This document shows, in pieces, positions 1,643 through 35,171 of a stretch of 64,000 bases of DNA. Position 1 is the first letter of the stretch. Each line of letters begins with the position of its first letter. The DNA is from Rhizoclosmatium globosum (taxonomy: Eukaryota > Chytridiomycota > Chytridiomycetes > Chytridiales > Chytriomycetaceae): assembly GCA_002104985.1 (NCBI GenBank), contig MCGO01000062.1, positions 62,001 to 126,000 on the forward strand, written 5' to 3'. A model generated the notes under the pieces. The model ran no database searches. It was not told the DNA's origin and saw nothing but the letters and a program-made list of their open reading frames with translations. The position numbers were made by a program, and so were the translations under genes.

Positions 1643-3817
1643 ATGTCACAATATTCAGTTTGTCAAGTTCAACGAAGTCCACTGAGAATATCTCTCGAAT
1701 TAAATGCATCCGATATACGAAATACTTCAGAGAAACGGCAACGGGTTCGACGTAGTTCTCGTCTGTCAAGTTCTGGAGTGGAAGATGTTCAACGTCTGGA
1801 CCCTGGCAGTCCTTCTTTCGCTTCGACTGTACCGTCACTCTCGAATACAAGTGCGAATGTTCGTGTAAGGACCTGCACGGGCTGTAGAAGAAAGCTCGAT
1901 TGTTTACGTTACAATCAACATGGCCTTGTAATCAGCTCTTCTTCTGGGCGTTATCACTGGTAACATACTCCAACCCTTGCCATCTTATCGAATAGTAACC
2001 TTCTCGCAGGCCTTGTGTCCCAGATCCAGTTCTCAAAACCATCAAAAACGAACAGAACCTGGCTGGTTTGAAACAACTTTCAGCAGCAGCGCAGTTTATT
2101 GTATCAAGAGCATTAGTTCGCGGATCTGTCAATGTGAGCTATCACTCAAAACAATGTCACATCGACTCACAACTTCATTCAGATTCAACCCACCTTCAGC
2201 ACAACTCAAAACGCATCAATATCATCAACAATTACACTTCCAAGGTTTCTTTATCAGGCACCCATCCAAGACCCCTCCGACGACCTCCCTCCACTTCCCG
2301 ATATCCTCCTCTTTCACACTCCAATCTGCTCAACGAAAGCCACAAATCAACGGATACTCCAACGCAAAAAACTCCTATCACATATTAAATCCGGACCGGT
2401 ATTTTCATCTGAAAATGACGACTCCATGGATGCATCATATCTGTCTGACGCGTCCACAATCTCTGATATATCAGATTCGTCTGCGATTGATTCTGGCCTT
2501 TCAGAATGTGAATACTATTCGTCGTCAGAGGAGGAGACGAAAATTATAGGGTGTGTCGAATTGAACGGACCGTTGAAGAGAACCTTGTTTGCGCGCAGTG
2601 TAAAGAGGTTGGAGAAACTAATGAATCGCGTAAAAGAGGAAGAGAGTAAGTCTCGTTATCGTCGACTGGTAAGGAGGCGAGAAAGGACTCATGGGAAATT
2701 ACGAGTGCCAAAAGTATCTGGGCTTGATTCCTCAAAGACTGACTCTGATATTTCTGAGTGTGAATACGTTTCATCTGCAGAAGAGAACGAGAATGCCGAA
2801 GCACGGTATAAATCGGACGGCTTGAATGACGAGAACTCATTTGTAGACTCGTTAGAAAATTCAGAGATTCAGAAAGACGTGACAACAGAGGATGAAGGAG
2901 CAATAAGCAAAAGACGCATGACACATGAATTACCAGTGCCGACTATGTCCTTGTTGAATATCTCTATCATGGCTGACTCTGATATATCTGAATGCGAATA
3001 CTATGCTTCATCCGAGGAAGATGAACATCATGGCACATCATCATCAAAGATCCACACAAATATTCCAAGTGTCTCAGCAGTTGATTCTGACCTGTTTGAA
3101 TCGGAAGTTGAGAAGGATGTTGAATTTTTCATCAATCCCTCACTGAGAAGCGATGTTGAACAAAGCAATTTAATCGTGCAGAAAAATCTATGGAGGGACG
3201 TTGTTATCGAAGATGAGAGGCAGCCAACAACACCCGAATCTGAATCCGAACTTTCCGAATGTGAATACGTGTCATCGTCTGCAGATGAAGAGACAGAATG
3301 TAAAATAAGAACACAGCTGAAAGTTCATTCTATCAATTTGAGCAGGGATGAACGAAGTAGCGTTCGGCAACGACAGCAATACTTTACACCCGACGAATCA
3401 CCAGAACCCGATGTTTCTAACGCCTCATTAGACGAATCAGATATCTCTGAATGTGAATACGTGTCGTCCTCTGAAGAAGACTGCGTTTCTGTCGAGAAAC
3501 TAAAAGAGAACGCAGGTGTAAACGTCAAGAGAAGGAAAACATATGTTCCTACGCGCTTGGTGATTGAACTTAAGCAACCGGCTCGGACGACCAGAAGACT
3601 GAGACAGCAAGAAACAACCCCTGATGAATCACCCGTCTTGTCACGTCCTGGCCTTGACTCTGACATTTCTGCTAAAGATGGGTACACGTTTGAAAGGTTC
3701 TTGACCGGAGATACGAATGCCGCCAAGAGACGGAAAACTGTGAACAAAATTGCGCCGAAAATTGAGGAGAGAGTTGTTAGGAGTAGTAGACGGTTGAATG
3801 CGGAAAGTAATCGCTGA
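1643..3817 (+). CDS. Unknown acidic-repeat protein with an N-terminal cysteine cluster (691 aa)
   Basis: I do not recognise this family. Three exons keep one frame: 1643-1959, 2010-2133 and 2183-3817, with GT-AG introns of 50 and 49 bp. The N-terminal part has a basic RVRRSSR stretch, then a Cys cluster of the form CxxCRRKLDC followed by GRYHWPC. That cluster spans the first intron and looks like a small zinc-binding motif. A hydrophobic stretch (LKQLSAAAQFIVSRALVRGS) follows. The rest is acidic and carries at least five copies of a short motif, core SDISECEYVSSSEED, roughly 60-80 residues apart, each followed by basic clusters (RRKT, RRLR). The motifs would suit casein kinase 2 phosphorylation; that is inference. 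The gene lies between two identical tRNA-Thr genes. A chromatin or transcription role is possible but unproven. Confidence 0.68.
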
Positions 3818-4174: not shown

Positions 4175-4538
4175 GCCATTTTGTTTTCTGGGGGTGGTTG
4201 TTGATGTTGGGTGAAGAATTGGGGAAGTATTCAACAATTGTTATTCGTTCCCGTTTTGTAAATATATTTAGCATTGTTCAAAGTAGGAGCAATCCTTGAA
4301 TCAGTTTAGGTTTCTAATTATATTTAGGAGTCCTCGTCAACTTCGCCCACAATTAATGAACAAAGTCTTGAATGCGACTCATCGTTGCTGGACTCCCAAT
4401 TTGTTGCAACGAAAGCATTTAAATGAGTGTGAAATATTCGAATCAATTGTTTGGATGATTGGTGATTTGGTGATGGCAACCAACAACCCACCAACAGCCA
4501 ACCTCCTTCTCTCCAAAACGGTTTCAAAACTGTGTAGC
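4175..4538. other. Intergenic, no gene seen
   Basis: AT-rich spacer between tRNA-Thr and tRNA-Pro. The open frame that runs through here also crosses the tRNA-Pro gene on the other strand and shows no protein-like pattern. Confidence 0.6.
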
Positions 4539-4610
4539 GGGCCTCACGGGGAATTGAACCCCGGACCTCTCGCACCCAAAGCGAGAATCATACTACTAGA
4601 CCATAAGGCC
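4539..4610 (-). tRNA. tRNA-Pro (TGG)
   Basis: 72-nt cloverleaf on the minus strand. The acceptor GGCCTTA pairs with TGAGGCC and the anticodon stem CTCGC/GCGAG holds loop TTTGGGT (anticodon TGG). The T arm is GGGG-TTCAATT-CCCC. A second copy lies at 44967 on the plus strand. Confidence 0.93.
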
Positions 4611-5238
4611 GCTGTGAAGGGTGAAGAATGTTCACAATATATACTGCACAACTCAACTGCTACCTGCTGCTTCTACGAGGGGATAAATGGCTGCTACTTT
4701 TTATTGTATGAATGCCTGCCCATAGTCTATGTTTATTCTTATGCTGTAACGGACGTGGAAAAACGTTGTGGGAGAAACAAGTGTTTCTTTAAAATGCCAT
4801 CCATATACACACATTATCAATCAGCTCTACGTTCTCATACGATTCGTGAGAGTTTTCTGATTGTGAATACGATTTTCCAACTCCAACTAGCGCATTTTAT
4901 TATACAAGTAATCGAAAACCAGGTAGGACCGTTGGTGACAATCCCGGACGCATGTCATTCAAATTAAGGCATAGAAATCTTGTTTTCTCGCATTAAGTTT
5001 TGGCAATCACGAATTGTGTCCATGGAATTGTGAGGCTTGCTGAGGTTCAATGTAAGTCTTCCTCATGATGCTGAAATCGCTTGATGATCCCAACTCCAGT
5101 AGTGCGACCGTGACTTAACTTAATTATCATTTTGCAAAGGAACATTTGGTGTTCAGCAATAACGAATAAATACATATTGATGTTCAACAAATCACATAGC
5201 CACAGTTGTTACGCCCTATCCTGAAATCTATCTTGAAA
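4611..5238. other. Intergenic, no gene seen
   Basis: 628 bp of AT-rich DNA between tRNA-Pro and the protease gene. It presumably carries the protease promoter; I see no convincing ORF or RNA. Confidence 0.5.
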
Positions 5239-17500: not shown

Positions 17501-20166
17501 TCGCTTTTTCTTCCTCGGTCCCACAGGTGCAGGTAAATCCGTATGTATGAAAGCATTGGAAAAGTGGGGAGCTCCCATCGTCCGTTTCCAGGACTATGTC
17601 TTTGAATTTGCTGCAACAGCAGAACAATCAGTCAAAGAAGAAATCGAATATATGATGAAAGAAAACGCTGGCCTCTTATCTCCTATTATTGTTGAGGATA
17701 TCATCACAAGTTTGTTCAAGAAGGAGCCATATGCCTCAAAAGGATTTTTGTTGGAAGGGTTCCCACGTACAAAGGTGGAGGCTGAAGTTGTTGTAAAGCA
17801 TAACCTCTATGTGGATGCTGTTGTGGTGTTGCGTATCGACGCTGAGGTTGCCGCACACCGGATGATGTCGGAACGCAAGAAGGAGTTGAAAGCGAAACGC
17901 GATGCGGCGAAAAAAACATATCAAAGTGCGAAGAGCGACAAGAATTTTACAGCTCTCGAATCAGTGTTAAAGGAAATTAAAAACCTGGAAGAACATGAAA
18001 GCGAGATTTTAGACACTTTCTTGGATATGTACGCATCTCGTTTCATTACCTCCTTTGACTAACCATCTATTAGTGTTGATAAAGACAATATGCGAATTGG
18101 AGACGCTACAAGCACATTTGAAAGTTCTTGGACAGTTCCTATTATTGAAATCGACTGCAACAAATGTATCCGCCCTGTCCTTGGAAGCTTAAAACGAAAC
18201 TGTACTCAGTTTTTTGAAAACGTAAGCATAGCTTATTGACCTAACCTTTCCGTTTAACTCTATTGCAGAGACGCAGTCTGCTTTGTAACGCCATCAAGAT
18301 TGAATACCGCGATGCAGAGCTCCTCATGAGACTCGGTGTCAAGAACTACAGCAAGTTCGGAAACTTGTGCCCTGTTTCCTTGAAAATAAACTCATCAGTT
18401 CTTCGACGCCTCACAGGAACGAAACCAGTTCTCTATAGAGACTGCATCTACTACTTGAGAAACGAAGAAAACCGCGATGAATTCATTGCAAATATTCACG
18501 AGTACATCAACCAGCCGCCTCCACAAACTGTAGTACGTCCTCAGATTTGCATTGTTGGAAGACCAAAGGCAGGCAAATCTGTTGCAGCGGAGAGAATCGC
18601 GAAAGAATACGATATGGTGTATTTGACGATTCCCATAATCATCAACAGTATCCTTCAAGGAAAAGAGCATTTGCAACTTGCATACAAGATCCAGGAGACT
18701 CTTACATCTGGCTTGGAACTGCCCGATGAGATTGTGAATGAAGCTGTTTTGTTGGTAACATCAAGAGCCGTTTGTCAAGTTCGGGGATGGGTTCTTGATG
18801 GTTATCCACAAACAATTGAGCAAGCTAAAGCTTTGGAGAAGATGGGTCTTGTTCCGCATGTGGTTTTCAACCTGAATATTTCTGAGGAAGATATGTTCTC
18901 TCGTGCCGATTATGACTTAAAGATGGATATCAAGTAAGTTCTTTTTGCATTGTAAAAGGTTAAACTGAAAAATTACATAGGTTAAAAACACCACATTTGA
19001 ACTACCCGTCCATAATGCAAACGCGAAACGATATTTACACAACGAATTTGTCTCCACTCAAAGCATTATATCAAGTAAAATACGCAAACTGGATGGAAAT
19101 CGACGGCACCAAATCGAAATGGTTCCTCAAGGAAGCTATTGCCCATCATCTCGAATCCGAGACAAAACGACGTCAGAATTACACGGACTTGAAAACAAAA
19201 GGATTAGCCGCTCCGTTGAATGACATTAGTATCAGTGTTGAATTTGTCGAGCATCATTTGAGCAAGTTTGGAGAGTACTGCGGAGTACGGCTTTTGAATG
19301 AAGGCGAACTTGTGAGAGGCCCGGCTCCTTCCACGAAATTTACCGCCGAGTATCAGGTAATTTTATTAAAAATGAGAGAATCTTTTTTTGATTTGTATGC
19401 TATTCAGGGCCGATTCTACAGAATGGCTGGGGAAGATGAACTCAGAATCTTTCTACAAAACCCAGCAAAGTATGCGTATGGGCCTGAACTACCCGAAACC
19501 TTGCCACAGAGAAGAGATGCATCTGCTCTTGTGTTCCCAAGACAACTTGAGCTGCAAGGTTACTGCCCAGTAACGTTCGGAGACGGTCCTCCAGGGTTAG
19601 TCATGATTTCATTCATTTGTATTCGAGGGTGTAACAAACGTGTTTGTAGATTCGAAAGCATCCTCCCCGGGGACCCAAACTTGATCGTCGAGTACGAAGG
19701 AAAGCTGTACTCCTTCACAACAGAAGAAACCCTAGAAAAGTTTATGAAAACTCCGTGGGACTACGTAAACCTCGAACTCCCCAAAAAACTTCCCCCGAAA
19801 CTCGTCAACATCAATATCGGACAGCTTCCCCTGATTGGATACTTGGAGCAGTCCGTTGCTCGCGCGTTGATGGACTCTTTGACGGATGTTGGGAAGTTTA
19901 GGCCAAAGTATCCGTACAAGAGTTTGACAAAGTCTGCAGCTGATTATGTTGGATTGTTTTTGCAAGCTACTAATCCGAAAGCCAAGGAATGGATGCAGGA
20001 GGCAAAAGCGAAGGAGTTGGGGAAATTCAGGGAGCATTGTGACTTGTTGTATGATATTGCAGAGCTTTCGCGTGGTGCTGATTCGAATTTCGCGTTCATT
20101 CCGAAGGAGGAGAGACCACTTGGGTTGGATGAGAAGTTGAATAGGTTCTTTGCGTTAAAGTCTTGA
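14512..20166 (+). CDS. AK9: Adenylate kinase 9-like protein with four kinase-like modules (1,721 aa)
   Basis: AK9 proteins interconvert nucleoside mono-, di- and triphosphates and are found in cilia and flagella. Eleven exons give one frame: 14512-15363, 15412-15605, 15651-15904, 15958-16602, 16657-17354, 17400-18028, 18074-18221, 18269-18933, 18981-19356, 19408-19595, 19650-20166. Four P-loop regions are visible: GRVPGAGTS (about residue 46), GGPFTGKT (about 523), GPTGAGKS (about 922) and GRPKAGKS (about 1233). The first lacks the P-loop lysine. Lid-like blocks WVIDGFPRTLDEA, FLLEGFPRTKVEA and WVLDGYPQTIEQA follow modules 2-4. Between modules are repeated blocks of the form CPV...SYRGCFFFLSDQESMEKF..NPDKY, typical of AK9. 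An acidic Glu/Lys linker is in exon 2. The exon 9-10 intron is 51 bp without a stop and could be retained. The gene suits a zoosporic fungus. Confidence 0.9.
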
Positions 20167-27839: not shown

Positions 27840-30800
27840 ATGGTCCCAAGACCGTGGAACTATCCACTCCTTCATCTTTGTTTTATTGGAGTGATTTTAA
27901 TTGGATTCTCCTACACGACACTACGAAGGCACTTGATATCGTAAGTGTTTACAGTGTTTAAGATTTGGTCATGATTCATTTTGCAAAGTGACCCCTGGCT
28001 ATTCACTGTTAGGACGGGCGACTTGTGTGGCAGGCACTGGAAGTGTTTCGTTGTGAAAAAGCGAAGAACGGGATCACGTGTGCAATCCACGGACGGACGG
28101 GAGTGGTCGGAAGCGTAGTTCCGTTCAGTCCCGGTCCGGAATCTCCACGCAACCCCGACACGCTCACCTCAATGTCGCTTATCACACTTCCAACTACGTA
28201 CCTCCTGCTTGGGTAAGTTAGTCGGTTCTGTAGTGGAATGGTGAGGGAGTGGGTGCGGACTAACCTGTCGACAGATCACTCGGAGAAGACTTCTCCGTCG
28301 TAACACCCCCCTGTGACGACAGGGTAGGTTGCAGTCACGTGTGAAGTGATAAGAGTGTCGGACTAGATTGAGTGCGTATAATAAGCCCAGAGGTGCCGGC
28401 ACGCGCGTGACACGCGTCCCCCCTGTGACAAGACTATACTGGAGACACAGAAGCTTTTTACAAGCATAAGGCTAAACATTTAATTCACCAGAATAGAGTG
28501 CGAGCTTGAAGAATTGAACTTCATAAATGTTTATTTAATCACTAAACCTTGTGTATCTGACTCTAAGTGCTTTAAACTTATAATCAGGGTCAACATCAGA
28601 TAACTTACACATTCCCATCATACCACATAACCTGTAGTGTTGGGGAGCAGGCAGAGCCTTAGTAAGTACATCAGCAACCATCAACTCAGTGGGGCAGTAA
28701 ACCAGAGAAACATTGCTGTTTTCAATATGTTCACGTACAAAATGAGCCTTGACCTCCATGTGCTTAACACGGGCATGGTTGATGGGGTTGGATGCAATAG
28801 CAATTGTAGACTGATTGTCTTGATCAATTACTGTAGAACCAGGCAACTTGAAACCAAGTTCTTGCAAGAATAGACGCATCCAAAGGGCTTCTTTAACTGC
28901 TTCAACGAGGGCATAGAGCTCGGATTCAGTAGAAGACAAAGCAGTAGTTGACTGCTTCTTGGAGTACCAGGCAACTGGACCTCCGAAAGCCATCATCACA
29001 TACGCAGAGCGAGACTTACGATCAGTCTCTTGTGCAAAACTTGAATCAGCAGCAGCATGTGGAGCCAATCCTTCTGGCAGTTCCATATCAAGTGGTCGGT
29101 CAGTCCTTACTCGAGACTCTTCAGAAGAGTAGACAGTTAGGTCACCAGAAGCACTTGCCTTGAAAAGAATTCCCCAATCATAAGTTCTACGAAGATAGCG
29201 TAAAACTCGAATCAGCGCATCATAGTCATGCTGAGTGGTGGAGGAACGTTGAAACTGAGCCAGAGTGTTCACAGCGCATATGAGGTCTGGTCTGGTCATA
29301 CAACTCAAATAAATCAACTTGGCAATAATTGAACAGTATTTGCGTTGTCCTTCTGCAGAAATGGGAGGGCTACTTGGGTCATGATTCCAAGTGGTGGCCA
29401 TTGGAGTATCAGCCCAATTGTTGGAGTCCAGATCCCAAATATCGTATTCTTTCAGCAGAGCATGAGCATATTGAGGTTGTCCTATCCATATTCCCGCTTT
29501 GGTGCGTTCAACTTGGATCTTGAGAATCCATTTGGCTTGGCCAAGGTCAGAAATCTCAAACTCAGACTTAATAAGCTCCTTGATTTGGTCAATCACAGCT
29601 TGGTCCTTACAAGCAATGAGGATATCATCAACATAGAATAGAATGATGACAAGTTGACCAGTGGTTGGATCAATCTTCATGAAGACACAGGAATCAGTTT
29701 TCAACTGTTGGAAACCAATTTTCACAAAGAAATCGCGTAGTCTCTTATACCATTGGCGTCCAGCTTGGCGAAGGCCATAGAGTGCTTTCTTGAGCTCGGC
29801 AAAGAGAGGTCTACCTTCAGAGTCTTTTTCAGTGAACCCTGGGGGAAGATGCATGTAGTTTGGATGGTCCAAGTCACCATACAAAAATGCAGTCTTGATA
29901 TCAAGTTGCGAAATGTTGAGGTTAAATGCGGCGCTTAACGCGATGAGAACACGGATTGCCTTGATCTTGACTGTTGGCGAATGAGTTTCGTCAAAGTCAT
30001 CATAAGGGGTTTGACCACAGCCGACTGCAACAAGACGGGCTTTGAAGCGAGTGATGAATCCTTCAGGATCAGTCTTGTATGCGTAAACCCACTTTGATTT
30101 GATGGGTTTGCGACCTTCAGGCAAAAGAGAAGTGGTGTAAACTTCGCGGTTCATTAGACTCTCAATTTCACAAAGCATTGCACGTTGAAAGTAGGCAGCA
30201 AAGCGTCCTTCCATAGCTTCACGAACTGACTTAGGAACAGGTGGAGCATTGGAAACATGAATACGTTCAGTTGGTACATCAGAGGGAGCAGCTTTGGACC
30301 AATCAAAGTGAAGTTCTGGTCGGCGGGCGGCGTTGATGCGAGATCTTTCTTTCTCCAACTCTTCCATCTGAGAACTCATAAAGCTATCCATTTCGACACG
30401 AGCATGTTCGGCGCGGCGGCGGAGTTTACTGAATTTCTTGCCAGTTGATTTGGCAGCACGTTCAACTCGGTGTTGAAGCCTAATGTATGTAGTACTTGCA
30501 CGAACCACAGTAGTTATAGCTTCAAGTGCGCGGCGGCTCAATGCAGCTTCAAAGTCTGGATCAGATAGGGTTGCTGGTTCTTCTTCATCATTGGACTCAG
30601 CAGGTTTGGTGCCAGGGCTTGAGGCTTCAGAGTCAGATGCTGAATCTGAGTCTGACATAAGGACTTGACCTTCCTTGAAAAGGTGTTGCATATAAGATAT
30701 GAATTCATCTAAATCACTGGTACCAAGGGAAATAGACGACTTGGAAACCTTTGCTCGGAGACGACGTGGCTTTTGTGGAGGTTCACTCGAAGACTCGCGG

Positions 30801-33800
30801 CTACGTGGTCGCTTTCGCAGGCTTCGACCAGGCTCTTGGAGGAGACGAGAAATATCCTCACGTTCTCTGGCAAGGCGAGGGCCATCGATTAAAGGTCCCG
30901 AAAATAATGGGCTGGAACTGTCAGCAGAATCTATAGGAAAACATAAAGAATGTTACATTTTGCTTGGCGTATTGAGGAATACTAACCATGGGCCATAGAT
31001 TCGCCAACAGGCTGGACTTTAGAGAATAGCTTCTCAAGACTTGCCTCATCGTCAGTCATGATAGTATCATCTAAAGATTTGTATGATTGTTAAATAAGAA
31101 TTTGAAGGAATTATGATAGTGTACGGCTATTCACCTTCATCTTCCAAAGAAACTGCCTCAACATCCCCTTTATACGTCATCTCAGACTTGGAAAGTGTAG
31201 TAGCATCAGTGTCCCAACCAGACTCTGGAGTGTCAGATTCGGAGTCAACAAGTGCTTCAGGTACCTTGAAACCATCATCTGGTATGTCAATGAAGTAGTC
31301 GAAAACTTCATCTTCAACCGGAGTCACTGGCATTGATGTCTGCATGGCATCAGCATGGGCCTTGACAAACGGATTTACCACTGTTGGATCAAAGGTCTTT
31401 CCAAGAAAGATGGTGGGGCACCAGCGAACGTGAAATACTTCAACTGGCTTTTGAAGGCGATAGTTCCAAACAATCATGATAGTACGCGACTTGTATGCAA
31501 GAAAGGCAACGGGCTCTGCTTTGATCATTCTACCAACGCGTTTGGTCCGTAGTTTCTTTTCAACTGGCGTATATCCCAACGTACCCATGGAAATGAAGTA
31601 ACTGTAAATAGTTGTTACTCTCCAGAATTGAGTATAAAGAATGTTTGAAAGACTCACTTGTAGTATGGTTGTACCTTGGTGATACGTTCATACGGTGACT
31701 TCGCGCGTACTCCATTTTTAGGAGCGGCGGTTACGAGTGAATTAATGACAAAGACTGCAAGTTGAATTGCAAAGCAGTAGAAATCCTTTGGGAACAAGGA
31801 TGTCAGCAATTCCAATTCAGCTCTGTCGCGGTAGATTCCAAGAGGGCGTTCGACCAAACTAAATTCTTGAGTGTAAGCTGGTGCAAGTCGGAGCTCCACT
31901 TCAACATCAGAATGGGAGAGGCACCAAGTTTCCATCCACTTGGTATCAAGTTCACCTCTGTCGCCTCCAATTACAAGAATCTGATACCCATACTTGAGCT
32001 CTAAAGTGTTCAGAAAACGAGTGAATCGGATGGTAAACTCTGCTTTTGACTTGAGCGGTAGAATCCACATATATTTGGTGTATCGGCATTGGATGAATGC
32101 TATATACCTGTAACCACGAATAGTGCGAAAACCAATTGGATAAAGGTCTTCGTATATGTGGCTTAACATGTGAATTGGCCTGTCTGATGGGCCATCAAGC
32201 TTACGGGTGGTTCGTTTCCTGTGTGCTACGGCAGGACAAGCAGGACAGATTTTCTTGTCTCGCTCAAAGTTGTAGGTGATTCCTGCAGAGTCCAATGTTT
32301 GACGCATAGTACGGTCGTTGCAATGGGCAAGGACTTGGTGCCATTCTAACCAAGTTTTGCGATCCAGAGCAGGAATGGACTTTGCAGGTGCAGCGAATTT
32401 GGATTCGTCATAACCAAGGTCAATGTAGTAAAGATCGCCGACTCGTGCTCCAATTTCCAAGACTTGACGCGTTTGATTGAGCTTCAAGCGTACCTTGTTC
32501 TGAGTGAACTCAATGGTATCTTTTGAGTCACGTAACAAGTGGGAAATTGACACAAGCATGTCTGTAAGCTGAGGGACATGAAGAGCGCCTTCAATCAGTC
32601 TCTCAGGGTTACTGAACATTCGGATGGTACCAGTACCGACTATTGGGATCTTGTTTTCGTTGGCCATATATACGAATTCATCTTCAACTGGCTGGTAGGT
32701 CCCAGGAACAAAGTGTTCTAAACAAGGAGTCATAATCAAGGAAGCACCAGAATCAATCAAAGAACGGATACGTTTATTGAAAACATTCAATCCACGTGTA
32801 ACAAAAATCCGCTTTGACAACTCATTAAAATCGTGCCACTTGTCAACTTCATCGACTTGAAGAAGCGTTGAGCCTCTCTGGATTCTACTTGCCCGCGAGC
32901 TTACGGACTTGCTTCTCAACGTCCTTGTTAGATTTTGAAGTCTGGGCAATGAAGTGTAAGAACCATCGTCGGAATCATATTCGTCCATAGACTCAGAGTC
33001 ACTGGAGGATTCAGCAAGAGCAGGCATATCAAAATCAGAATCGGAGGGGGAGGAATCGACCAAATCGGCATTTTCACTCACCTTCAGAATCGATCTGAGA
33101 GCCTTCTTGTCAATCTTGACGTCTTTCTCGTCATCACTGGCACTGTCGGAGTAGTAGTCTGTTTCATACTCGGTGTCAGCAGCATTCGCACGCTTCTTGC
33201 GACGGTTGTTTCGGTCAGAGTCAGAAGCGTCGCGAGCAGAACGGTGGCGCTTGTCAGTTTTTCTTCTGTCACGGTCTTGGGAACTTGAAGAAGGACCAGA
33301 GTTTGAGGTAGGGGAAGACTGGGTGGTCTTAGATTTCTCTAAGCGTTGGGTCAGATCAACAGCCTCTCCTTTCTCAATCAGACTGGCAGCAAAACGACAA
33401 TGGCGAAGGAGATGTGTTGGACCTCTGGTTGATTGATGGAGGCGACACGTATTGTTGAGATTGGCTTTGTATCCGTTGTTAGAAAGCCAAGTCTCAAGCT
33501 CCTTGAACTTTGACACCGTTGGTGAAGATTCAGTTCTCCCCTATGGTTTGATGTTAGTTATTTATCAAAACCAATAGTTGGAGATAATGATGACTTACAG
33601 CATTTGCTCTGATATTCTTGTCAGACTTGTCAGATGGGTCAGAAAGGTTGCGAGCATTGGTCAAAGTGCTTGTCAACTTGGTGATAAGAGCTTCCATATT
33701 TGGAAACAACTTGTAACCGTCTTTCTCGATATCAAGTCGGATTCCAATGAAGCGGCTTCCAAGGACCGAACTTGGATCTGGCATGTTCTTGTGGACAAGG

Positions 33801-35171
33801 GCCAGAGTGAGGACAAGAGAGAAGATATCGGCAGCCTTTTCCGCATCAGTGTCATTGAACTGGAAATGCTGGAAAACAGCCTTGATTTGCTGCAGACCTT
33901 GGGAAGACTTCTTGAGCTTTTCGACAAAAGCTTCCCACTTCTCCAAACTGTTCCGATGCTCCTTCGACAGTCCAGACTGCATGAGGTTGTTCAAGAACGT
34001 GGTGAAGTTCATCTATATGATGAAAAGTCGATTAGTCATCATTACAAAGTCGAATTTGAAATGGATAAGGCAAAAGGGGAAGACGTAAAATAGTCACTCA
34101 CCCCAACCCGGTCGTCTTGTTGGAAAACAGATCGCGCAGCAGCGAATGCATTCAAAAGAGTTGGGTTGGCCTTGAACGTTGGGTCCTCCTGAATCTCTTT
34201 CCACTTGATGGAAGAGAACTGCTGGGAGTAGTCACGGAGGGCAGCGGCTTGACCATCAATAAACTTGCGATGTTGTTCCTTTCGCTTGTTGTTGATGTCA
34301 TCGACTTCCTTTTGGTGTTTCAGAGCGGCATCAACTAATGCGTTGTGATTGAGTTGATTCGTCTGGAAAACAGCCAGATCCGACGGCTTGTCGCTCTCCA
34401 TGGTTACTTCGTAAGGCTGCCCACCATTCTCGGAGTTGACCGTCTTTTTCACCATTATAGGTTTGGGAGCGGTTGTGGGAGCGAAGATCTCGTAGGAGGC
34501 GAGCACAAGCGTGGATTGGAGGTCGGGATTGACGAGAGACGGGTAGAGTTGCCTGATGTAGGCCTCGTTCTCATCAAGCGACGTGGACACCATGTGTGGA
34601 GCAAAAGCATCCACAGGCTTGGGGCGGTGGACGTCGGTAGTGTTTACAGTAGACTTGCTTGACCCAGTCATTAACGGCGTAGTTGTGTTAGGACGGGCGA
34701 CTTGTGTGGCAGGCACTGGAAGTGTTTCGTTGTGAAAAAGCGAAGAACGGGATCACGTGTGCAATCCACGGACGGACGGGAGTGGTCGGAAGCGTAGTTC
34801 CGTTCAGTCCCGGTCCGGAATCTCCACGCAACCCCGACACGCTCACCTCAATGTCGCTTATCACACTTCCAACTACGTACCTCCTGCTTGGGTAAGTTAG
34901 TCGGTTCTGTAGTGGAATGGTGAGGGAGTGGGTGCGGACTAACCTGTCGACAGATCACTCGGAGAAGACTTCTCCGTCGTAACATTCACTGACTGAAAAC
35001 AGTACAATTGCGGAAACAGCGATTTCTATATCAAAATCAAATGTCATAACGCATTACACTACTTTGAACTGGAGCACGTACCTTCTCACTCCAAATTTTA
35101 GAGGGAGAGGCAAATCTTCCATTGACATGGCCGTTGAAAACTGCCTGAACCATTTGGATACTTTTACTTAA
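27840..35171 (+). CDS. Small membrane protein gene interrupted by the Copia element in its intron (89 aa proposed)
   Basis: Exon 1 is 27840-27940 and exon 2 is 35003-35171. The donor GTAAGT at 27941 and an acceptor AAACAG ending at 35002 would define a 79-bp intron once the element and one target duplication are removed. The joined frame is open from ATG to TAA. Exon 1 encodes a short N-terminus and one membrane segment (LLHLCFIGVILIGFSYTTL), exon 2 a polar region with NWS as a potential N-glycosylation site. The sequence is not recognised, and further 3' exons are possible. If the model is right, splicing must now remove about 7 kb; otherwise the gene is inactivated. Confidence 0.4.
28007..28305 (-). 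repeat. 3' LTR of the Copia element
   Basis: Begins TGTTAGGACGGG and ends CGTCGTAACA on the plus strand. By eye it is identical throughout to 34686-34984. Confidence 0.95.
28306..28314 (-). promoter_or_regulatory. Polypurine tract candidate of the Copia element
   Basis: On the minus strand CACAGGGGG abuts the 3' LTR, the position needed for plus-strand priming. Confidence 0.6.
28535..34671 (-). CDS. Copia Gag-Pol polyprotein, six exons (1,937 aa)
   Basis: Exons: 34671-34102, 34012-33599, 33540-31658, 31601-31135, 31070-30987, 30930-28535. The five introns are 89, 58, 56, 64 and 56 bp, all GT-AG, in phases 0, 0, 2, 1, 1; each holds an in-frame stop. Joined length is 5,814 nt, an exact multiple of three. 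Gag occupies the first two exons and the start of the third, with a knuckle-like CRLHQ...HLLRHC motif. Protease: LIDSGASLIMTP. Pre-integrase: WLEWHQVLAHC then ICPAC. Integrase core: VIGGDRGELDT with a later SLVERPLG. Reverse transcriptase: KSKWVYAYKTDPEGFITRFK then ILFYVDDILIACKD. RNase H: ALSSTESELYALVEAVKEAL and VKHMEVKAHFVREH. No disabling mutation was seen. The start is the ATG at 34671, only 14 nt after the LTR. Confidence 0.93.
34686..34984 (-). repeat. 5' LTR of the Copia element
   Basis: 299 bp, by eye identical to 28007-28305. On the coding strand it ends CCTAACA, and the gag ATG follows after 14 nt. Confidence 0.95.

Follow-up and report, generated by a model that had tools for sequence, protein, structure and literature searches.

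The window analysed here, a stretch of 64,000 nucleotides from Rhizoclosmatium globosum (contig MCGO01000062.1, positions 62,001 to 126,000), contains a Copia element of 6,978 bp on the minus strand (34984-28007), whose gag-pol gene is divided into six exons by five introns. This is very probably an intact and recently inserted Ty1/copia element for which unspliced RNA is the usual genome and spliced RNA the message, with a leaky separation between the two. The evidence comprises the structure of the element, several recent insertions that carry the introns, one exact intron loss and selection on the spliced frame. Introns classically serve to test whether a sequence has passed through RNA; the window element has done so and keeps five nonetheless.

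The earlier note on this DNA had placed the retrotransposon at 28535..34671. The coding frame fits this span, but the element itself is wider (28007-34984), and is bounded by two long terminal repeats (LTRs; 34984-34686 and 28305-28007) of 299 bp each, with TG..CA ends. The description of identical LTRs and intact target-site duplications was accurate, as the pair has no mismatch and GTGAA, a 5-bp target duplication, stands on both sides. The parts of the element are listed below in sense order; C52 and C388 designate related families in the same genome, and C394/C34 an insertion of the window family together with its duplicate.

34985..34989, minus strand: 5' target-site duplication GTGAA.
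34686..34984, minus strand: 5' LTR, 299 bp, TGTTA...TAACA.
34102..34671, minus strand: exon 1, 570 nt, N-terminal Gag, 190 codons; ATG 14 nt past the LTR; no Pfam match over the cut-off.
34013..34101, minus strand: intron 1, 89 nt, phase 0, GTGAGT..TAG, with a CTAAT branch-like site and three tandem in-frame stops.
33599..34012, minus strand: exon 2, 414 nt, Gag; aligns with C52 residues 211-323.
33541..33598, minus strand: intron 2, 58 nt, phase 0, GTAAGT..TAG, with a CTAAC branch-like site.
31658..33540, minus strand: exon 3, 1883 nt; end of Gag, protease (Pol_BBD, LIDSGAS), GAG-pre-integrase (weak) and integrase core; protease motif by eye, integrase via alignment with C52.
31602..31657, minus strand: intron 3, 56 nt, phase 2, GTGAGT..CAG; precisely absent in C394/C34.
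31135..31601, minus strand: exon 4, 467 nt, end of integrase and linker.
31071..31134, minus strand: intron 4, 64 nt, phase 1, GTGAAT..TAG; counterpart in C388.
30987..31070, minus strand: exon 5, 84 nt, phase 1-1 cassette in the linker between integrase and reverse transcriptase.
30931..30986, minus strand: intron 5, 56 nt, phase 1, GTTAGT..TAG.
28535..30930, minus strand: exon 6, 2396 nt; linker, reverse transcriptase (RVT_2, YVDD), RNase H and stop; YVDD and RNase H by eye.
28306..28312, minus strand: purine run AGGGGGG adjoining the 3' LTR, a likely polypurine tract, by eye.
28007..28305, minus strand: 3' LTR, identical to the 5' LTR.
28002..28006, minus strand: 3' target-site duplication GTGAA.

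Beside the 5' LTR, inspection by eye found no match to a tRNA 3' end that could mark a primer binding site; no comparison was made with the tRNA set of the genome. The sequence TCACAGGGGGG is present twice, at 28306-28316, in the purine run by the 3' LTR, and at 28418-28428, 112 nt upstream in the 3' untranslated region (UTR).

The five GT-AG introns of 89, 58, 56, 64 and 56 nt described in the earlier note are exact to the base; their phases are corrected to 0, 0, 2, 1 and 1. Reading through from the preceding exon meets a stop in each of them, after 1 to 19 codons. When the introns are removed, as was also claimed, a single 1,937-codon gag-pol frame results: the six joined exons comprise 5,814 nt (1,938 codons including the stop), with no internal stop in the phase of any exon. 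As in Ogre-like elements, the frame is open only after intron removal. The unspliced frame ends 19 codons into intron 1, leaving an N-terminal Gag piece of about 209 residues at most, whereas full Gag-Pol is encoded by the unspliced RNA of copia, BARE1 and EVADE. In the neighborhood of each intron, the number of GT and AG pairs that would keep the frame is 15 to 28; a donor pattern compatible with the reported introns combined with a YAG acceptor leaves one pair for introns 2, 4 and 5 and two for introns 1 and 3, the reported pair being included each time. A splice-aware dynamic programme supplied with no positions recovered these five introns, along with two at the 3' end that are spurious, which is a consistency check and not a blind test, since its donor table was written after these introns were known. 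The same programme gave short GT-AG introns at the actin locus L042, in a model that is recognisable and inexact at its ends, and no sensible model at the actin-like loci L043 and L045.

The order of protease, integrase, reverse transcriptase of RVT_2 type and RNase H agrees with Ty1/copia (integrase being placed via C52 and RNase H by eye), as do the TG..CA LTR pair and the 5-bp target duplication; integrase before reverse transcriptase is the Copia order. The earlier note had listed gag, protease, integrase, reverse transcriptase and RNase H in the frame. Pfam confirms this for RVT_2 in exon 6 (E 1.7e-57) and Pol_BBD in exon 3 (E 1.2e-11), gives a weak match to GAG-pre-integrase (E 0.027), and does not call the integrase core (rve) in the window copy. 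We place integrase in exon 3 because this exon aligns with C52 residues 365-925, a stretch that includes an rve match below the curated cut-off at 784-869. The protease motif LIDSGAS, the YVDD motif and RNase H were identified by eye.

To place the window copy among its relatives, we compared it with the remainder of the genome (G000; 56.9 Mb, 420 contigs), where a DNA search with window positions 33000-34671 returned 16 matches. Fourteen loci were analysed, comprising 13 family copies (window included) and the fragment L031. Flanks common to L026 and L027 (100%) and to L028 and L029 (97-99%) mark two duplicated loci, and the 13 copies amount to 11 independent insertions. All five introns are found in eight of these (the window, C1, two on C376, C363, C124, C418 and C238), so that the five introns reported for the window copy recur in most of its siblings. 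Across the 11 insertions, 52 of 55 intron places are kept, two show imprecise deletions and one a precise loss; changes within kept introns are small (intron 2 is 3 nt longer in some copies, and intron 4 of C377 is 7 nt shorter). Mismatch-free LTR pairs occur in seven insertions, seven of the eight with all five introns, and their target duplications match within each insertion and differ between them. In the others, LTR mismatches number 3/298 in C377, 5/288 plus 11 gap letters in C109 and 4/297 in C394; the 3' LTR of C124 is truncated. Matching 5-bp flanks, all different, surround 10 of the 11 insertions. Outside the duplicated loci, the sole match between the compared flanks is one of 123 nt at 82% between C124 and L031, so the family spread by integration and not by segment duplication. 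These data support the claim that the intron-bearing form moved recently, and extend it to repeated movement. It follows that the RNA that is reverse-transcribed is normally unspliced.

Searched against the genome, intron 1 was found at 13 family places and in one relic, and intron 3 at 11 places, in all family copies except C394/C34. An origin as introner-like insertions was rejected on these searches, which returned only family places and the one relic; introns 2, 4 and 5 were not searched singly. Two copies show further rearrangement. In C124 (L023), the 3' end of the element, comprising part of exon 6, the UTR and 165 nt of LTR, is tandemly repeated with a period of about 1.46 kb. L028 and L029, the two loci of an older copy that was duplicated, carry stop codons in exon 6, and about 320 bp of their exon 3 are inverted.

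Intronless full-length copies, which the earlier note held would count against its reading, were not found among the 13 copies of the window family compared; instead, one insertion lacks exactly intron 3. In this insertion, C394 (duplicated as C34), intron 3 is absent precisely from GT to AG while introns 1, 2, 4 and 5 are kept, and no repeated base at the junction allows another placement. C394 retains both LTRs and has its own target duplication, ATTCC; its exon 6 is interrupted by about 5 kb of other DNA. Since the deletion fits both intron 3 splice sites exactly, it is best explained by splicing of intron 3 followed by reverse transcription, either of a partly spliced RNA or through a template switch. 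Spliced RNA can therefore be reverse-transcribed, as C394 shows; with regard to the existence of spliced RNA, the loss speaks for intron 3 only. A 63-nt gap in the 3' UTR of C394 was considered as a sixth intron and rejected, as it has neither a GT start nor an AG end.

Absence of intron 3 could instead be ancestral, the intron having been gained later in the other copies, and its absence from the related families C61, C4, C388 and C52 favors such an order of events. We nonetheless judge this highly unlikely. C109 has intron 3 and is the copy that has diverged most, both in its exons, where it differs from every other copy at 140 to 159 of the 4,310 to 5,100 sites compared, and in its LTRs, among the pairs measured; on this basis the absence in C394 is read as a loss. 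A maximum-likelihood (ML) tree places C394 among the younger copies, weakly. Moreover, of 16 polarised amino-acid sites, C394 alone is ancestral at none, with about the first two thirds of its exon 6 covered.

These copies also bear on whether the five segments are introns at all. Their stops might be bypassed by readthrough or frameshifting, or the segments might be copy-specific insertions; Copia-type elements often express one frame or use recoding, which counts for such an explanation. We regard it as extremely improbable, because GT-AG ends and branch-like sites are present in all five and the frame of the intronless C52 continues without an insert at the position of intron 1. Readthrough, frameshifting and copy-specific insertion were rejected on the recurrence of all five segments in eight of 11 insertions and the excision of intron 3 to the base in C394/C34. 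The data support the five segments as real introns.

Selection on the spliced frame was assessed in a set of 10 copies, with C109 and the duplicates left out. Variable sites at codon positions 1, 2 and 3 number 41, 19 and 119 of 1,938 each, so that variation is three to six times higher at third positions than at the other two, and addition of the decayed C109 gives 89, 48 and 149. From exon 1 to exon 6, variable codons with synonymous changes only and with amino-acid changes number 12/7, 9/1, 38/11, 9/5, 2/2 and 46/33. Because third codon positions vary most, the spliced frame has evidently been used, and the pattern supports purifying selection on it.

We infer from these observations two RNA pools, a packaging preference and truncated products. 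A single pre-RNA would be transcribed from the 5' LTR, and part of it would be fully spliced and translated into Gag-Pro-Int-RT-RNaseH (Pro, protease; Int, integrase; RT, reverse transcriptase). Unspliced RNA would be the form usually packaged and reverse-transcribed, and the introns would thereby persist. Rare leakage would produce insertions such as C394/C34, when reverse transcription takes a partly spliced RNA as template or switches from one kind of template, spliced or unspliced, to the other. Were intron 3, 4 or 5 retained, the product would be Gag-Pro-Int without RT, which might increase Gag relative to Pol; as far as the sequence alone goes, partly spliced RNA could also give truncated Gag. 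Two pools are proposed because unspliced RNA cannot make Gag-Pol, yet inserted DNA nearly always keeps the introns. The division into unspliced genome and spliced message, as first put forward in the earlier note, is partly supported: it gains from the recent intron-bearing insertions and the selected spliced frame, and C394 supports splicing but also shows that reverse transcription is open to spliced RNA.

Several observations weigh against this two-pool reading. Ordinary deletions occur in the family, including one of 33 nt over the 5' end of intron 1 in C109, one of 443 nt over intron 2 in C377, and the 63-nt non-splice deletion in the 3' UTR of C394. C394 is best read as a loss on a rooting that draws on divergence and one ML tree with inner support of 42-57. 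Splicing of introns 1, 2, 4 and 5 is suggested by signals, frame and relatives, and that of intron 3 by one event. Finally, the introns are dispensable for Copia success in this host, given the intronless C52.

The related families place the introns in a broader context. Protein identity of exon 6 to the window family is 52% in C61 (four copies), 51% in C4, 54% in C388 and 48% in C52. C61, C388 and C4 carry introns, as recognized by the splice-aware programme and by eye. Projected onto C52, intron 1 of the window family, of C61 and of C388 falls at residue 191-192, the positions being two bases apart in phase; C4 is without it. Within the integrase-RT linker lies an exon between phase-1 introns; its length is 84 nt in the window family, 87 in C388, 99 in C4 and 87 in C61 (partly by eye), and window exon 4 aligns to its very end with a C388 exon. 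Introns in similar places to introns 1, 4 and 5 are therefore present in C61 and C388, and to the linker introns in C4; the correspondence of intron 5 is suggested by the flanked-exon pattern, the linker being poorly conserved. Intron 3 was found only in the window family among those compared (C61, C4, C388 and C52). All four C61-type copies are length-stable over an intron-containing stretch of about 3.5 kb (3,494-3,504 versus 3,501 nt). C52 (L034, C52:31000-39200) has no intron and one unbroken frame of 1,938 residues; its 221-nt LTR repeat is identical at 100%, and the family looks young. In an RT tree, the window family, C61, C388, C4 and three metagenome proteins are grouped at 83, with mostly weak inner order, and this group adjoins C52, C223 and P0004 (99). 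The tree does not decide whether C52 was without introns from the start or lost all of them at once. The metagenome proteins P0001-P0004 begin 54 to 270 residues ahead of the compared RT region, starts that would be compatible with an upstream intron. A search of viral_contigs with one protein found no relatives. Frame changes of other kinds were also seen: in L033 (C61 family, sense 4500-4830), the integrase region changes frame about twice without clear introns, as decay or recoding; in L039 (C29), open frames 3, 2 and 1 overlap ahead of the RT frame, and about 230 nt form a gap that is not open; and C371, like C29, has several frames ahead of RT.

These comparisons bear on what, if anything, the introns do. 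They may be passive, gained by chance, kept only since most genomic RNA escapes splicing, and lost when a spliced template is copied; C394 would be one such case, and the ancestor of C52 perhaps another, in which the loss was wholesale. We give this about an even chance. It agrees with the apparent youth of the intronless C52, with the restriction of intron 3 to the window family and with the rate of change of the introns in the 10-copy set: introns are variable at 9 of 323 positions (the nine counted by eye) against 119 of 1,938 third codon positions (p = 0.013), and with 14 signal positions set aside per intron this slower change is not significant (p = 0.12). We accordingly claim no constraint in the introns beyond splicing. 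Less easily reconciled with passive introns are the counterparts of introns 1, 4 and 5 in families at about 50% RT identity, which suggest long persistence under repeated passage through RNA, and the invariance of the first 84 nt of intron 1 across the 10 copies.

A regulatory role is the opposite proposal, in which retention of introns 3 to 5 would yield Gag-Pro-Int without RT, retention of intron 1 or 2 a short Gag, and splicing efficiency would set the ratio of Gag to Pol. This would reverse the situation in copia and BARE1, whose Gag message is made by splicing. A single frame without frameshifting needs some other route to excess Gag, in-frame stops lie 1 to 19 codons into each intron, and introns recur in the integrase-RT linker (three in C61 and C4, two in C388, and two in the window family besides intron 3); C52, in contrast, manages without introns. 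We consider regulation possible but rather unlikely. The suggestion in the earlier note that the introns act as a built-in control was not upheld, given the young-looking C52 and the loss of significance outside splice signals.

In retroviruses, signals for packaging are situated downstream of the main 5' splice site. It is conceivable, though we think it improbable, that one of the introns, most likely intron 1, holds a signal for packaging or export that marks unspliced RNA as the genome. The hint comes from the 84 invariant nucleotides, from positions 29-84, the part matched in C109 and C372, which are unchanged there, and from the relic L041 (G000:C405:12562-12618), which matches intron 1 positions 8-64 at 84% (48/57). 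The neighboring exon of this relic matches only weakly, and the intron seems better preserved than the exon. If such a signal exists, the introns themselves would be what separates genome from message.

Overall, one genome offers a series in which to follow the division between RNA genome and message: families that bear introns and have young insertions, a copy from which one intron has been processed away, and, as a natural control, the intronless C52, whose protein has nearly the same length. Naive annotation of open reading frames splits such elements, and intact families can look broken.

Rhizoclosmatium is a saprotrophic chytrid. The protein at window positions 18997-20166 has its nearest named relatives in chytrids, including a partial Rhizoclosmatium hyalinum protein with 88% identity over 52% of the query. 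Elsewhere in the window, an open reading frame of 463 residues (2426-3817) contains a repeated SDISECEYVSSSEE-like motif, and four tRNA-Thr(agt) and two tRNA-Pro(tgg) genes are scattered over 1378-45319.

In Drosophila copia, unspliced RNA codes for Gag-Pol and one splice gives the Gag message. Passages on barley BARE1 and Arabidopsis EVADE (PMC3735527, PMC12786077) describe the same arrangement. BARE uses distinct RNA pools for translation and replication, and within Copia splicing had at that time been shown only for copia and BARE, according to the passages available (PMC3735527). The window element resembles these three in being a Copia type with a spliceable transcript; unlike theirs, its unspliced RNA cannot code for Gag-Pol, and five splices are needed. 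Ogre has one intron, and splicing restores its polyprotein. In the excerpts available, this plant Ty3/gypsy element splices between its open reading frames (PMC3735527), and a review of plant elements names Ogre, with a functional intron, and EVADE as exceptions to intron-free elements (PMC12786077). In contrast to Ogre, a gypsy type with one intron, the window element is Copia and has five, two of them inside gag. Cer1 of Caenorhabditis elegans is a Gypsy type. Its spliced and unspliced RNAs are described, in the portion available, as differing in task, with a protein from spliced RNA exporting the unspliced RNA (PMC12786077); no separate export protein was seen in the window element.

The literature search returned no five-intron Copia element and no processed sibling copy, from a set of papers mostly without subscription titles, and so as weak evidence of novelty. 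In the available text of a survey of ascomycete Copia elements, the word intron is absent by term search (PMC5445492), and the available part of a paper on brown-alga transposons contains nothing on LTR elements with introns (PMC12477816). Among fungi, Cryptococcus SCANR targets slowly spliced transposon RNA (PMC5851062, PMC7175516), slow splicing there feeds silencing, with DNA transposons among the targets (PMC7175516), and fission yeast Tf2 has a cryptic intron, splicing being described in the passages available as important to transposon control (PMC5851062, PMC7175516). Like these, the window element is a fungal transposon with introns. This five-intron Copia element adds to the kind known from copia, BARE1, EVADE and Ogre.

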